DNA of 22,147 bases, taken from assembly GCA_004565275.1 (NCBI GenBank), contig SDOX01000080.1:38771-60917 (forward strand). The letters are read 5' to 3'. The stretch comes from Nannochloropsis salina CCMP1776 (taxonomy: Eukaryota > Sar > Eustigmatophyceae > Eustigmatales > Monodopsidaceae). The notes beneath the pieces were generated by a model. It made no database searches. It worked only from the letters and a program-made list of their open reading frames with translations, and had not been told where the DNA came from. The translations under genes and the position numbers were made by a program. Positions 6,597-17,647 of the stretch are shown one piece after another; position 1 is the stretch's first letter, and each line of letters begins with the position of its first letter.

Positions 6597-7560
6597 GCGT
6601 CCTTGACCCTGTCTTTGTGTGCGGCATGAACGCCACGTAGTGGGGACCATCTTGCTATGGTATGCTCGCGTTCGCGCAATAATTTGAATCGGAGGAACTC
6701 TTGTAACGGTTTGGAAGTTGTCGCAACGGTCGGACCCAGCCGCCCTGCAGGGTCCTCGTGGCTTGGTATGGGTCTTCTGCGCAAGCATTCTACGTGGCCT
6801 TTTAATGTTTGGTGGATTTATGCTTTTATATATATTTACTCGTGGTCTGAGGAAGTGTGGTGGGAGTTGGACGCATAACAAAGATGAATGGCTTGTTCCT
6901 TACACTCGAAGGTCGATGGCGTCAAAATGAGACAGAGGCCGAGAGAGGAGCATCCTCTGCAATGTAATCCTTTGGGATGGGAAGCAGTTGCTTGAAAGCT
7001 TTCTTCTTTAAACTGACGATGGGATTGCATTCTAGTCTTTAGTCATAGTAAACGACAACGTGTATGTTTTCAGAGATCGTAAAAGTAGGGGTTGGGTATC
7101 TGGCCTCTCGAGTCGTCGGCCCATTTGTGGCCTTCTGCACGGAGGAGGAGCGTGCCCAACGGAACCAAAGAAAAGTGTCCTCGAGCCCTAAGTACTACTC
7201 ATACATTTGAGGTACTAGGCGTCCTCCTGCAGATTCCTCCTCTGCACATATCAATGCAACAACATGCTTACTCGACATGTGAGCTGAAATGAGGTCGTGT
7301 GTGCAAAGATGTCTGAAAGTGCATATCCTCTGCGCTGACGCTGTCCCATTGGTAGAAAACCATTTATCGTCCTCATTGTAAATGAGTTTGCTTGTCAGGA
7401 AGGTCTTCTTATGTCCTACGAAGCCGTCAAGAGTCGCTCTTGCGTCTCCTGATACCATGGTCACGAAATCTCTTGAGCTGCCGTGAGCTATTCTTTGCGC
7501 CCAGGACCCACCCAATCCCCCCTTTCTCCCTTTCCACAAAGGCACTGCGTAAACACAAAC
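6597..7560. promoter_or_regulatory. Divergent spacer between the fibrillin and acidic surface-protein genes
   Basis: This roughly 960-base region lies between two outward-facing starts. It is nearer to 50% GC than the rest and free of GGGAGG tracts. AT-rich patches (for example around 6825-6840, TTTATATATATTT) could be core promoter elements, but I cannot place a start site. No open frame here shows a domain. It should contain both promoters and both 5' UTRs. Confidence 0.4.
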
Positions 7561-9912
7561 ATGCCGACTCTAGCCGTCAAACGTGGCGTTCTTGTCCACG
7601 TGCTTGCGGCTCTCGTACTGACAGCCCCTGCTTCGGAGGGTCAGCTTTTTGGTGGCTTGGGCGCCGCACGCGGCCGGACCAACAATAACAACAACAACAA
7701 CGCCGCGGGTGGTAACGGCGGTGGATTATTCGGCTTCGGCGGAGGCGGGCTTATGGATGCCTTCACCACTAGGAGCCCTGATCCAACTAAGGCTCCGACC
7801 AACGCGCCCACCCTCGCTCCTACCACGGCGCCCACCCTGGCCCCGACGCGGAAGCCGCTGATCAAGAAAGAAACCGCCCCCCCCACCAATTACTGGGAAG
7901 AAGACGACGATGAGGACGATGACTTCACCTGGCCACCCACCACTGTGAGCGAGAACGGCGAGAACGGGCCGGATCTGGAACTCACGGCGGACGATGACGC
8001 TGATTTCGACTCTCTGGCCGCCGATGATGACCTTGAGGACGATGACTTCGAGATTGACGAGGATGAGAAGGCTCTGGCCGCTGATGATGATATTGAGGAC
8101 GATGACTTCGAGATTGACGAGGATGAGAAGGCTCTGGCCGCTGATGACGATGTCGAGGACGATGACGTTGAGGTTGATGAGGAGGCTCTGGCCGCTGATG
8201 ACGATGTTGAGGACGATGACGTTGAGGTTGATGAGGAGGCTCTGGCTGCTGATGACGATGTCGAGGACGATGACGTTGAGGTTGATGAGGAGGCTCTGGC
8301 CGCTGATGACGATGTCGAGGACGATGACGTTGAGGTTGATGAGGAGGCTCTGGCCGCTGATGACGATGTCGAGGATGAGGTCGAGGATGATGACGAGGAG
8401 AGCTGGGATGAAGTGTACGACGAAGAGGAGGAGGTTCTGGTCGACGATGTCGAGGATGAGCTCGAGGATGATGACGAGGAGAGCTGGGATGAAGTGTACG
8501 ACGAAGAGGAGGAGGTTCTGGCCGCCGATGACGATGTCGAGGATGAGCTCGAGGATGATGACGAGGAGAGCTGGGATGAAGTGTACGACGAAGAGGAGGA
8601 GGTTCTGGCCGCCGATGACGATGTCGAGGACGAGGTCGAGGATGATGACGAGGAGCTTGTCGACACATTCTTCGGAGACGATGACGCAGAGGATGGCGAG
8701 GAGGAGGAGCTCGGGGACGACGATTTGCAGGTGATTGAAGACGACGATCTTGAGATGGACGATGATTTTGAGGAGTTCATGGAGGCGGCGGCGGAGGAGG
8801 GGGAGGAGGAGGAGGAGGAGGAGGACGAAGAGGAGGAGGAGGACGAAGAGGAGGAGGAGGAGGAGGATGAGGAGGATGTTGCAGTGGCGGAGGAGGAGAA
8901 AGACGAGGAGGAGGATGAGGATGAGGATGAGGATGAGGATGAGGACGAGGATGAGATCGAGGATGAGATCGAGGAGGAGGATGAGGATGAGGATGAGATC
9001 GAGGATGAGGATGAGGATGAGGATGAGATCGAGGATGAGATCGAGGATGAGATTGGCGAGGTGGACTGGGACGATGACATGACGCCAGCCCAGGATGATG
9101 ACTTGACGGACGACGACGACTACGAGGAGTCGATGGCTGCACTGCAGGCGACGGAGAAAGAGGAGGCACTTTCCCCCATCCTGCCCGAGGGCTCCACCGT
9201 CCCCGAGGGAGAGGAGGAGGCCGGGGCCAGCGTCCTCCCTGTGGAGGACACGGAGGTGAAGGAGGACGAGGAAGCCTCTGCCGGCGTCCTCCCTGTCGAG
9301 CCTGTGGAAGATACCGTGGCCCCGGAGGCGTCGGAGAGCCAGGTCGCCACCCCGCCCTCCCCAATGAGGACACCGCGCCCCACGAATCAGGTGCCCCTGC
9401 CGGAAGCGAGCGGGGACAAGGAAGCGCCTGAGGCCATCGCCGAGGGGGGAGGCCTCCCCGGGGGGAATGGCGGGGCCGGGAACGGCGGGGGCATGCCAAA
9501 CCTGGGCGGGATCGGGAATGGGCCGGTGGGAGAGATGGTGAAGGAAGGTGCCTCCAACCTGGTGGAGGGTTCTTCGCCCATGGCGGGGACGGAGGGGGAG
9601 GCCGGAAGCGAGAGCAATCCCATGAGTGGCGCGGAGGAGGAGGCGCTGGTGGAGGATACGAACGCGAGGGAGGCAGAGAGTGAGGCCACCACCACCACCA
9701 CCACCACCGAAATCCTTCCCCCCCAGGCCGAAGTGGACCCTTCCGCGCAGAGCAATGTGAAGGAGGTGCTGCCCGTGGAGGACACGGTGCCTGCGGACGG
9801 GACCATGGGCGAGGAGACCGTCGTCCACTCCGGAGCCGGTCTGGCCCGTACATCCGGGTTGGTTTTGGCCGCGACGCTGCTGTTTGCTTTGGTCCCTGCC
9901 TTGGCGCTTTGA
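7561..9912 (+). CDS. Secreted, GPI-type, extremely acidic tandem-repeat protein
   Basis: Single exon, 783 residues. The ATG at 7561 is preferred over an in-frame ATG at 7483 because a signal peptide follows it at once: VKRGVLVHVLAALVLTAPAS, cleaved near residue 27. Next come a Gly/Asn-rich stretch with seven Asn in a row (about 40-65) and a PT-repeat spacer (APTNAPTLAPTTAPTLAPT, about 73-99), a style common in stramenopile surface proteins. From about 108 to 522 the chain is almost wholly Asp/Glu: 20-, 18- and 29-residue units (LAADDDVEDDDVEVDEEA is the 18-residue form), then unstructured DE runs. Residues 523-760 are Pro/Gly/Glu-rich with a run of Thr. The end, SGLVLAATLLFALVPALAL, is a GPI-attachment-type tail. 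I recognise no enzyme domain. Likely a polyanionic, intrinsically disordered cell-wall or surface protein that could bind cations; that role is inferred. Codon use is strongly GAG/GAT/GAC. Confidence 0.85.
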   Translation: MPTLAVKRGVLVHVLAALVLTAPASEGQLFGGLGAARGRTNNNNNNNAAGGNGGGLFGFGGGGLMDAFTTRSPDPTKAPTNAPTLAPTTAPTLAPTRKPLIKKETAPPTNYWEEDDDEDDDFTWPPTTVSENGENGPDLELTADDDADFDSLAADDDLEDDDFEIDEDEKALAADDDIEDDDFEIDEDEKALAADDDVEDDDVEVDEEALAADDDVEDDDVEVDEEALAADDDVEDDDVEVDEEALAADDDVEDDDVEVDEEALAADDDVEDEVEDDDEESWDEVYDEEEEVLVDDVEDELEDDDEESWDEVYDEEEEVLAADDDVEDELEDDDEESWDEVYDEEEEVLAADDDVEDEVEDDDEELVDTFFGDDDAEDGEEEELGDDDLQVIEDDDLEMDDDFEEFMEAAAEEGEEEEEEEDEEEEEDEEEEEEEDEEDVAVAEEEKDEEEDEDEDEDEDEDEDEIEDEIEEEDEDEDEIEDEDEDEDEIEDEIEDEIGEVDWDDDMTPAQDDDLTDDDDYEESMAALQATEKEEALSPILPEGSTVPEGEEEAGASVLPVEDTEVKEDEEASAGVLPVEPVEDTVAPEASESQVATPPSPMRTPRPTNQVPLPEASGDKEAPEAIAEGGGLPGGNGGAGNGGGMPNLGGIGNGPVGEMVKEGASNLVEGSSPMAGTEGEAGSESNPMSGAEEEALVEDTNAREAESEATTTTTTTEILPPQAEVDPSAQSNVKEVLPVEDTVPADGTMGEETVVHSGAGLARTSGLVLAATLLFALVPALAL
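8014..8133 (+). repeat. Coding minisatellite, two 60-bp units
   Basis: Two in-frame copies encode LAADDDxEDDDFEIDEDEKA (residues 152-191). The copies start at 8014 and 8074 and differ at a few bases. Confidence 0.85.
8134..8349 (+). repeat. Coding minisatellite, four 54-bp units
   Basis: Units start at 8134, 8188, 8242 and 8296. All encode LAADDDVEDDDVEVDEEA, and they are almost identical in DNA, with only silent C/T changes. Such uniformity suggests recent duplication or conversion. Confidence 0.9.
8350..8652 (+). repeat. Coding minisatellite, about three and a half 87-bp units
   Basis: Units start at 8350, 8437, 8518 and 8605. They encode LAADDDVEDELEDDDEESWD followed by EVYDEEEEV. The second is 81 bp (LVDD in place of LAADDD), and the last diverges after EDDDEE. 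The W and Y are the only aromatics in this acidic block. Confidence 0.85.
8780..9060 (+). repeat. (GAG/GAT)n coding microsatellite, poly-Glu/Asp
   Basis: Nearly uninterrupted GAG, GAT and GAC codons encode long E runs and then DE/EI patterns within the surface protein. The minus strand is CTC/ATC-rich and so is open in several frames. Confidence 0.85.
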
Positions 9913-16075: not shown

Positions 16076-17647
16076 TTATCTTAAACCCGGCTCCCCCAGT
16101 ATAAACGCTTGCCAATCCGGATTTCGTTGGACGTATGGGAAATTCTAAAAAGAGAGGAAGAAAAATTAAAAAAGTAGCGTGAGGAGGAGAAAGAGATGGT
16201 GCAGCTAAAAAAATAAGTAGGATATCCAGGAGTCTGTCTTGCTGGTCTTGCATTTCATATGTTTACCTGTAGTCTCTGCATGTATTCGTCCAATGCTGCG
16301 CGCCTTTCCTCCAGGAAGGAGGGGGAAGTGTGCGCCGTGAGGGCTTTCAGATATTTGGGAGGAAGACGAGGGAGGGAGGAAGCAAGGTGGTGTCCCCAAA
16401 AGTAAGATCGAATCTGAAAAGGGAAAAGAGAGAAAGGAGGGCCGCGTTTGAGGACTTTGAGAAGGAAGGCGTTAGAGAGAGCGACATGTCGAACCTAGGA
16501 CGACAAAGGTGAGGAAGGGATGGGATGGACGCCTGTAACAAGACCACGCAAGACACATGCTGGATCCTTTCGTCTCAATCTTGACGTCCGTTTCACCTAC
16601 TTTCACATCCAGTTTGTCAAAGTCTCGGAACCGAAACCGGTGTTCCTTTTCTTTGGAACCCGCCCTCCCGTTCGCTCCTTGCTCTCCTTCCTCGGCTCCG
16701 GTTCCCTCCGTCGCGGCCCACCGCGTTTTCAGTGTGTAGAAAGCTCCCACTTTCGCTTTTCCACTGGACCTGACGACCCCTCGAGAAGATGATTGCAGTA
16801 GGGTTTCCTCCTCTCCTTCCTCAACCTCATCTTCCAGTTTATCCTCCCTCGTCTTCCTTTTTTTTCTGTCTTCTCCTCCCTTTTCAGTGTCCAATGGCAA
16901 CAAAGCTACAGAAGATATCGTCACGCTTTCTATGGACAATTTTCCTGATAAACCCACTGTTTTTTTTCCTCCCTCTCCACCGTCCGCTTGCTCTGTGTCG
17001 CAGGCCCATGGACGACCTCGAATAACGAGCGAGTAGGAAGTGAGCCCTAATGGTTGGGAAATGTTTAAAGTGTACATCAATTCAATGGATATGGAAAGTG
17101 CACGTGCGTGCGGTGATGGACATCATTACGCTGTCGATTCCAAAGCGACAGACCAGGATAGTCAACAACGGTGAGCTCGCACGGCACTTTTCCTTGAAGA
17201 ATTTCGAATGATACGATTCCTCCGCTGTCAATACGGTCGACGGAGTGGTGAACAATTTGTCCTATTCAAACGGGGAGAAAGTGAAAGCGAATTATGTATA
17301 TTTTCGGGATGGGTGAAAGCTTTGCACACAGAACGTCGAAAAGACGCTACCAGGGTACGGTAGCATTTTTTCAATTTTTTTCATCGTTTACGTACCGTCG
17401 ACATATATGATCTTTTCACCCTTATGGCGATGATGCCTGTTAGGGCGATTGCAAAGTGAGACTTTGCTATCTTTCATTTTTCTTATTTGATCCTTGTATC
17501 TCAACACGTATCCTTCAAAACGTGCCGCCTCCCTTACCGTAACATGATTAGGACCTCTATCTCTTGTCCATTAGCTCTACAAGGGTAGCGCCAAATTCTT
17601 GTGACTAACCCAGAGAGTGTGGCCTTAGTCGGTGGTTGGTTTCCCAT
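16076..17647 (-). CDS. FAIM1-like beta domain fused to a PX domain
   Basis: Exons in transcript order are 17647-17538, 17436-17396, 17261-17130, 16944-16601, 16413-16267 and 16144-16076, all in phase, giving 280 residues. Residues 1-95 (TRIWRYPCRANGQEIEVLIM, then LRHHRHKGEKIIYVDGQIVH, then GGIVSFEIL and CELTVVDYPG) match the pattern of Fas apoptotic inhibitory molecule: W, then H-x-x-x-GxxxxYVDG, then short strands. An acidic/Lys-rich linker (about 112-145) follows. The PX domain begins near VTISSVALLPL and has FYTLKT, the RRYSDF equivalent RFRFRDFDKL (197-206), the loop LPRLPPKYL (223-231), and FLEERRAALDEYMQRLQNFP. PX domains bind phosphoinositides, often PI3P, on endosomes. PX is confident; the FAIM-like call is a by-eye match. 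Exon 4 could instead start at 17016 (same frame, 24 residues longer). An in-frame ATG at 17734 is an alternative start. If the GTAATG donor at 17129 is not used, the first part would end alone at 17077. Confidence 0.62.

Follow-up and report, generated by a model that had tools for sequence, protein, structure and literature searches.

FAIM is a small protein known chiefly from animals, and PX is a type of domain by which proteins are anchored to cell membranes. The N-terminal domain of FAIM has been described as eight antiparallel strands arranged in two sheets, with a reported dimer, and its interaction with the C-terminal FAIM domain has been reported to be important for anti-apoptotic activity (PMC6628066, in excerpt). 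According to the same excerpt, no FAIM-interacting protein has been identified, yet the binding of FAIM-L to XIAP is described. The origin of FAIM has been assigned to the holozoan ancestor (PMC7056718, in excerpt), and some animals are devoid of the corresponding Pfam family, PF06905 (PMC6343361, in excerpt).

For PX domains, the residues that act as PtdIns3P ligands have been named, SNX7 is listed as a PtdIns3P-only binder and some members are reported to be without lipid binding (PMC6449406, in excerpt). The PX proteins of kinetoplastids resemble the gene analysed here in being protist PX proteins with partner domains. They differ from it in the partners themselves, those named in the abstract of a survey of 170 such proteins being Pkinase, Lipocalin_5 and Vps5/BAR3-WASP; the term 'FAIM' occurs 0 times in the text of this survey (PMC10380299).

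In the present work, we examined a gene in which a FAIM1-like module is placed ahead of a PX domain. It lies in the window, i.e. the whole stretch of 22,147 nucleotides of Nannochloropsis salina CCMP1776 that was analysed, and 34 light-harvesting matches in the genome mark its host as a photosynthetic organism. The initial annotation knew of no described FAIM-PX pairing, and this was borne out in the full-text literature, where FAIM combined with PX, sorting-nexin or stramenopile terms returned no such pairing, most subscription journals lying outside this search. In the same literature, nothing related was found for the PX domain with Nannochloropsis. Since no FAIM-PX pairing was found in this literature, we regard the combination as a new domain architecture made from two known families. 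Some non-holozoan protists carry FAIM1 annotations of automatic origin, and public eukaryotic protein databases may already contain unremarked automatic annotations of proteins such as this one.

Gene model in the window

The gene is carried by the minus strand and extends from an ATG at 17647 to a TAA at 16076, with a joined frame that is open over 306 residues. Six exons were defined, and all five introns are bounded by GT and AG. The introns are 101, 134, 107, 187 and 122 bases long; as none of these lengths is divisible by three, each intron needs to be removed to keep the frame. The span 16076-17647 of the initial annotation was thus exact, its outer ends being the same in the rebuilt model, and its six in-phase exons were recovered, but the protein is longer than the 280 residues it had announced. 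The exons are listed below, with their joints compared to one of two paralogues of the same genome, hereafter C48 and C78.

17538..17647, minus strand: exon 1, with the ATG and the first part of the FAIM-like module (MGNQPPTKATLSGLVTRIWRYPCRANGQEIEVLIML); donor GTAAGG; joint 1 ungapped against C78, intronless at this place (MLR-HHRH with LRHNK)
17396..17436, minus strand: exon 2, with the HxxxxGEKIIYVDG motif of the FAIM-like module, covered by the Pfam FAIM1 alignment; donor GTACGT; joint 2 adjoins a two-residue gap in the alignment to C78
17154..17261, minus strand: exon 3, middle of the FAIM-like module (QIVHHSVDRIDSGGIVSFEILQGKVPCELTVVDYP); donor GTCTGT, the weakest of the five by eye
16601..17046, minus strand: exon 4, end of the FAIM-like module (LTSYSLVIRGRPW), a charged linker and PX as far as RFRFRDFDKL; joint 4 ungapped against C78, which has no intron there (FDKLDVK-IRSYF with FDKLDRLVRSAF)
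16267..16413, minus strand: exon 5, with the PPK loop (LPRLPPK) and helix 2 (FLEERR) of PX; recognized as PX by itself in the genome-wide search, with 24.7 bits, above the cut-off; joint 5 ungapped against C78, which has no intron there (MQRLQ-NFPYVQRNPD with LQRLIRMPKASHNPD)
16076..16144, minus strand: exon 6, with the last PX helix (NFPYVQRNPDWQAFILGEPGLR) and the TAA stop

Three other versions of this model were considered and rejected. A donor GTAATG for exon 3 at 17129 also keeps the frame, and it adds eight residues within the module and lowers the FAIM1 score from 15.1 to 12.0 bits; because of the better FAIM1 match, the joint 17154/17046 was preferred. When exon 4 is ended six bases earlier, two residues are lost relative to the C78 alignment. 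Reading exon 5 through to a stop without exon 6 leaves the protein without its last PX helix.

The FAIM-like module and its paralogues

When the complete window protein was compared with Pfam, FAIM1 was the only family listed besides PX, with 12.4 bits (E 0.13) over positions 16-81 of a 172-position profile. With residues 1-106 alone, FAIM1 was the sole family listed and reached 15.1 bits (E 0.019, profile 16-80), the curated cut-off of the family being 22 bits. To control this comparison, the module was also run in reverse and in nine shuffled versions: FAIM1 was found in none of these ten sequences, and other families were found in three of them (E 0.11-0.28). Since the controls match unrelated families this often, the window module taken by itself is suggestive, not convincing.

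A FAIM1 search of the 26.5 Mb genome gave one place, C48:390455-390688, with 25.3 bits, above the cut-off. At C48:390809-391066, a PX domain was found by the genome search with 36.2 bits; the two domains are 120 bases apart, in one open frame of 843 residues without a stop. When the C48 protein was scanned, FAIM1 scored 24.2 bits over profile positions 13-84, so that C48 alone passes the FAIM1 cut-off in either search, which the window protein and C78 both miss. After the PX domain of C48 comes a PDZ-like stretch, which with 17.5 bits does not reach its cut-off of 23.2, and the frame ends with a low-complexity tail of about 500 residues, the frame being uninterrupted. As regards a stand-alone FAIM in this genome, C48 was the single candidate scored by this family search; intron-split copies can escape it, as C78 and the window gene did.

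The PX domain of C78 looked the closest to that of the window, and for this reason the DNA upstream of it was read. It belongs to a gene of three exons on the minus strand, at about 702.5-703.8 kb, encoding 301 residues. FAIM1 scored 13.5 bits on the whole protein and 16.3 bits on the module alone (E 0.0079), over profile positions 12-81. By eye, the C78 motif, LRHNKLSGTRFVVLDG, is the nearest to the animal pattern among the three modules. The two introns of C78 are placed differently from those of the window gene, and the FAIM-PX stretch of C48 has none; this points either to an early origin of the paralogues or to introns that change readily.

As judged from these alignments and profiles, the FAIM-PX pairing is real and recurring, the same domain order being present in three genes of one genome. 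It is the presence of the two further FAIM-PX genes, one of them intronless across both domains, that renders the FAIM-like module of the window protein convincing.

Furthermore, the modules were compared with each other. The alignment of the C48 and C78 modules scored 67, the mean for shuffled sequences being 9.6 (z 12), and none of 1000 shuffles scored as high. For the window module, z was 3.5 with C48, a score equalled by 8 of 1000 shuffles, and 2.9 with C78, where 17 of 1000 did so. By these pairwise scores, the window module is more diverged than the other two and modestly above chance. When the window was left out and the profile was made from C48 and C78 only, the spliced window module reached 12.0 bits, whereas 2000 shuffles gave 7.3 at most; the single unspliced exons of the window were not picked out by this profile. 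When the C48 protein was searched against the whole genome, the matches after itself were C78 (1.4e-10), the window gene (2.3e-7) and, as the fourth and last, C6 (0.084), a PX protein with a Vps5 domain (41.4 bits).

In order to relate the modules to FAIM1 itself, single sequences and profiles were compared with the human protein and with the PDB. In phmmer comparisons with the N-terminal segment of human FAIM1, the scores were 17.7 bits for C48, 10.6 bits for C78 and 7.7 bits for the window module; the highest scores among 2000 shuffles were 8.9, 9.9 and 7.4, respectively. The N-terminal 113 residues of C48 gave exactly one PDB match at E ≤10, which was 3mx7, the N-terminal domain of human FAIM1 (E 0.015). 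With a profile of the three modules, 3mx7 was found among 177635 PDB sequences at E 2.9e-5, the next match being at 0.94. A profile of the three complete proteins gave 58 matches at E ≤10, mostly PX domains, with 3mx7 at 7.3e-4. An AlphaFold prediction of the C48 FAIM-PX stretch, run without alignment, had a mean pLDDT of 34 and a pTM of 0.27 and was uninformative on the fold.

On the strength of these comparisons, which are of sequence only, we regard the window module as a homologue of FAIM1's N-terminal domain (3mx7). Like FAIM1, it aligns with the N-terminal half of the PF06905 profile, and the three-module profile is collinear with 3mx7. Unlike FAIM1, it corresponds to the N-terminal half only, it is fused to PX and the window copy falls below the family cut-off. 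As modelled here, none of the three proteins matches FAIM1 past profile position 84 of 172, where the C-terminal FAIM domain would be expected, and PX follows instead. Thus, the module, its fusion and the completeness of PX, all put forward in the initial annotation, stand, but what precedes PX is half of FAIM1; likewise, the profile check that it had proposed succeeded with the three modules together and remained below the Pfam cut-off for the window module alone.

PX domain and other PX genes of the genome

Residues 218-299 of the window protein match the PX family (Pfam PF00787) with 45 bits (E 1.6e-11). The corresponding scores of the C78 and C48 proteins are 53.9 and 33 bits, and all three exceed the curated PX cut-off, 21.6 bits. 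Judged by eye, the first part of the window PX domain contains a long low-complexity insert. The solved sequences that scored highest with this domain were SNX7, SGK3 and SNX1. It shares with SNX7, SNX1 and SGK3 the PX motifs, the PPK loop and the arginine of helix 2, and differs from these proteins in that the window protein has no BAR/Vps5, kinase or FERM domain and carries a Phe where the canonical residue is Tyr. It differs from the SNX-BAR sorting nexins in the same respect, no Vps5 domain following PX.

The PPK loop, defined as a large aliphatic residue followed by P-x-x-P-x-K, reads LPRLPPK in the window protein and LPSLPIK in C78; in C48 (LPELPGR), an Arg replaces the Lys. When the window PX domain was aligned to SNX7, the residues of the predicted PtdIns3P site were Arg-Phe, the Lys of LPRLPPK and the Arg of EERR. 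Three of the four canonical residues are therefore kept at this predicted site, and the Phe in place of Tyr is a conservative change. In C78, all four predicted residues are found (RRY, LPSLPIK, EHRR).

C48 resembles the SNX27-type adaptors in that its PX domain adjoins a PDZ-like stretch, which scores below its cut-off. The domain order of SNX27 is PDZ-PX-FERM, whereas that of C48 is FAIM-PX-PDZ, no FERM domain was found in the 340 residues of C48 that were scanned and the window gene has no PDZ.

A genome-wide PX search gave 13 places at E ≤1, of which 12 were above the cut-off. Around the ten places other than the three FAIM-PX genes, two module profiles were run at E ≤5 on six-frame fragments of 6-7 kb stretches, reaching roughly at least 4.5 kb upstream. 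The best values obtained near these ten places were E 1.2 (C52) and 2.3 (C72), and 3.5 with the second profile (C52); they were taken as noise, in a search that could miss a copy whose module is interrupted by introns, just as the window exons escape the C48 and C78 profile. Another PX pairing was seen in this genome at C70, about 428.3-430.7 kb, where PX (56.3 bits) and EDR2_C (114.8 bits) share one frame.

The tree of the PX domains was poorly resolved, none of its branches being starred: two changes of the FAIM-PX label are required on it, and one origin was found in 10% of 200 bootstrap trees. One of the other ten domains, C42, grouped weakly with the three FAIM-PX members (85/94), with a partial, low-complexity match and a long branch. 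Because of this poor resolution, the tree was not used as an argument for a single origin. Relatives of FAIM-PX were also sought in viral and prokaryotic contig collections, in which 0 loci were confirmed; as the collections consist of viruses and prokaryotes, this result has no bearing on other algae.

Proposed role and alternative readings

The architecture established above from sequence leads us to propose, with reasonable but not full confidence, that the window protein acts as an endosomal membrane adaptor, in which a FAIM half is joined to a PtdIns3P-binding PX domain. The PX domain would bind PtdIns3P and direct the protein to the membranes of endosomes or of the vacuole. The FAIM half would be a beta-sandwich that either holds a partner protein or forms a dimer, by which the avidity for the membrane would be raised. 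A reading in terms of membrane traffic is plausible and fits the residues of the predicted PtdIns3P site. In C48, the PDZ-like stretch would suit a scaffold or cargo-adaptor role.

Instead of an adaptor, the protein could be an anti-aggregation or anti-death factor similar to animal FAIM, for which PX would provide placing only, or the PX domain could have exchanged lipid binding for protein contacts; we consider this pair of possibilities unlikely. FAIM has been reported to counter stress-induced aggregates (PMC7056718, in excerpt), but the C-terminal domain is missing here; anti-apoptotic activity is reported to depend in part on how this domain contacts the N-terminal one (PMC6628066, in excerpt), and the FAIM half should therefore not act quite like animal FAIM. 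As regards lipid binding, PX domains that do not bind lipids exist (PMC6449406, in excerpt) and the window protein has the Phe for the canonical Tyr, whereas the Arg, Lys and Arg of the predicted PtdIns3P site are kept.

It is more doubtful still that the module is some other small beta-rich domain proper to a PX subfamily, the likeness to FAIM1 being due to convergence or chance. Such a reading would account for the window and C78 scores below the Pfam cut-off (15.1 and 16.3 bits) and for single-sequence matches to human FAIM1 that, for these two modules, barely exceed shuffled sequences. However, C48 is above the FAIM1 cut-off, and FAIM1 is the sole non-PX family in the three proteins save for the weak PDZ of C48, in a shared profile register (16-81, 13-84 and 12-81). 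Moreover, the three-module profile leads to FAIM1 at 2.9e-5 and to nothing else below 0.9.

Finally, the wrong joining of two adjacent genes of the same strand, one for a short FAIM-like protein and the other for a separate PX protein, is very improbable: the donor GTCTGT at 17153 is weak and an unspliced exon 3 would reach a stop near 17077, but both domains share one uninterrupted frame in C48, C78 requires two introns only, placed elsewhere, the window joints 1, 4 and 5 are ungapped against intronless stretches of C78, and within exon 4 the FAIM-like module ends and PX begins without a change of frame.

Three proteins with a FAIM half and PX in a photosynthetic genome extend the FAIM fold, as predicted from sequence, beyond animals and their close relatives. 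They indicate that the fold is usable as a module of multidomain proteins, here physically linked to a domain of the phosphoinositide-binding type, and a testable lead on the N-terminal FAIM domain is provided, namely a conserved endosomal partner or a dimer. A broader and frankly speculative view, to which we give rather little credence, is that FAIM-PX proteins are an ancient family in stramenopile algae, and perhaps in a wider group, whose single FAIM half binds the partner while phosphoinositides anchor the adaptor to endosomes; on this view, the FAIM fold would be older than the holozoan ancestor, with a first role in endosomal membrane traffic or proteostasis, and the two-domain soluble FAIM of animals would be derived.

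Elsewhere in the window, three minor observations were made. On the plus strand, an open frame of 811 residues (7477-9912) has a hydrophobic start and C-terminus and long Asp/Glu-rich repeats (AADDDVEDDDVEVDEEAL); in Pfam, it matches the PT repeat only, below the cut-off, and by eye its product looks like a secreted or GPI-anchored acidic repeat protein. On the minus strand, an open frame at 129-584 matches the S4 RNA-binding domain with 34.4 bits, above the cut-off of 22.8, and is perhaps, at a guess, the start of an RluA-type pseudouridine synthase. A low-complexity stretch near 11.8 kb contains consecutive N, translated as 34 X, which probably correspond to an assembly gap or to masked bases.
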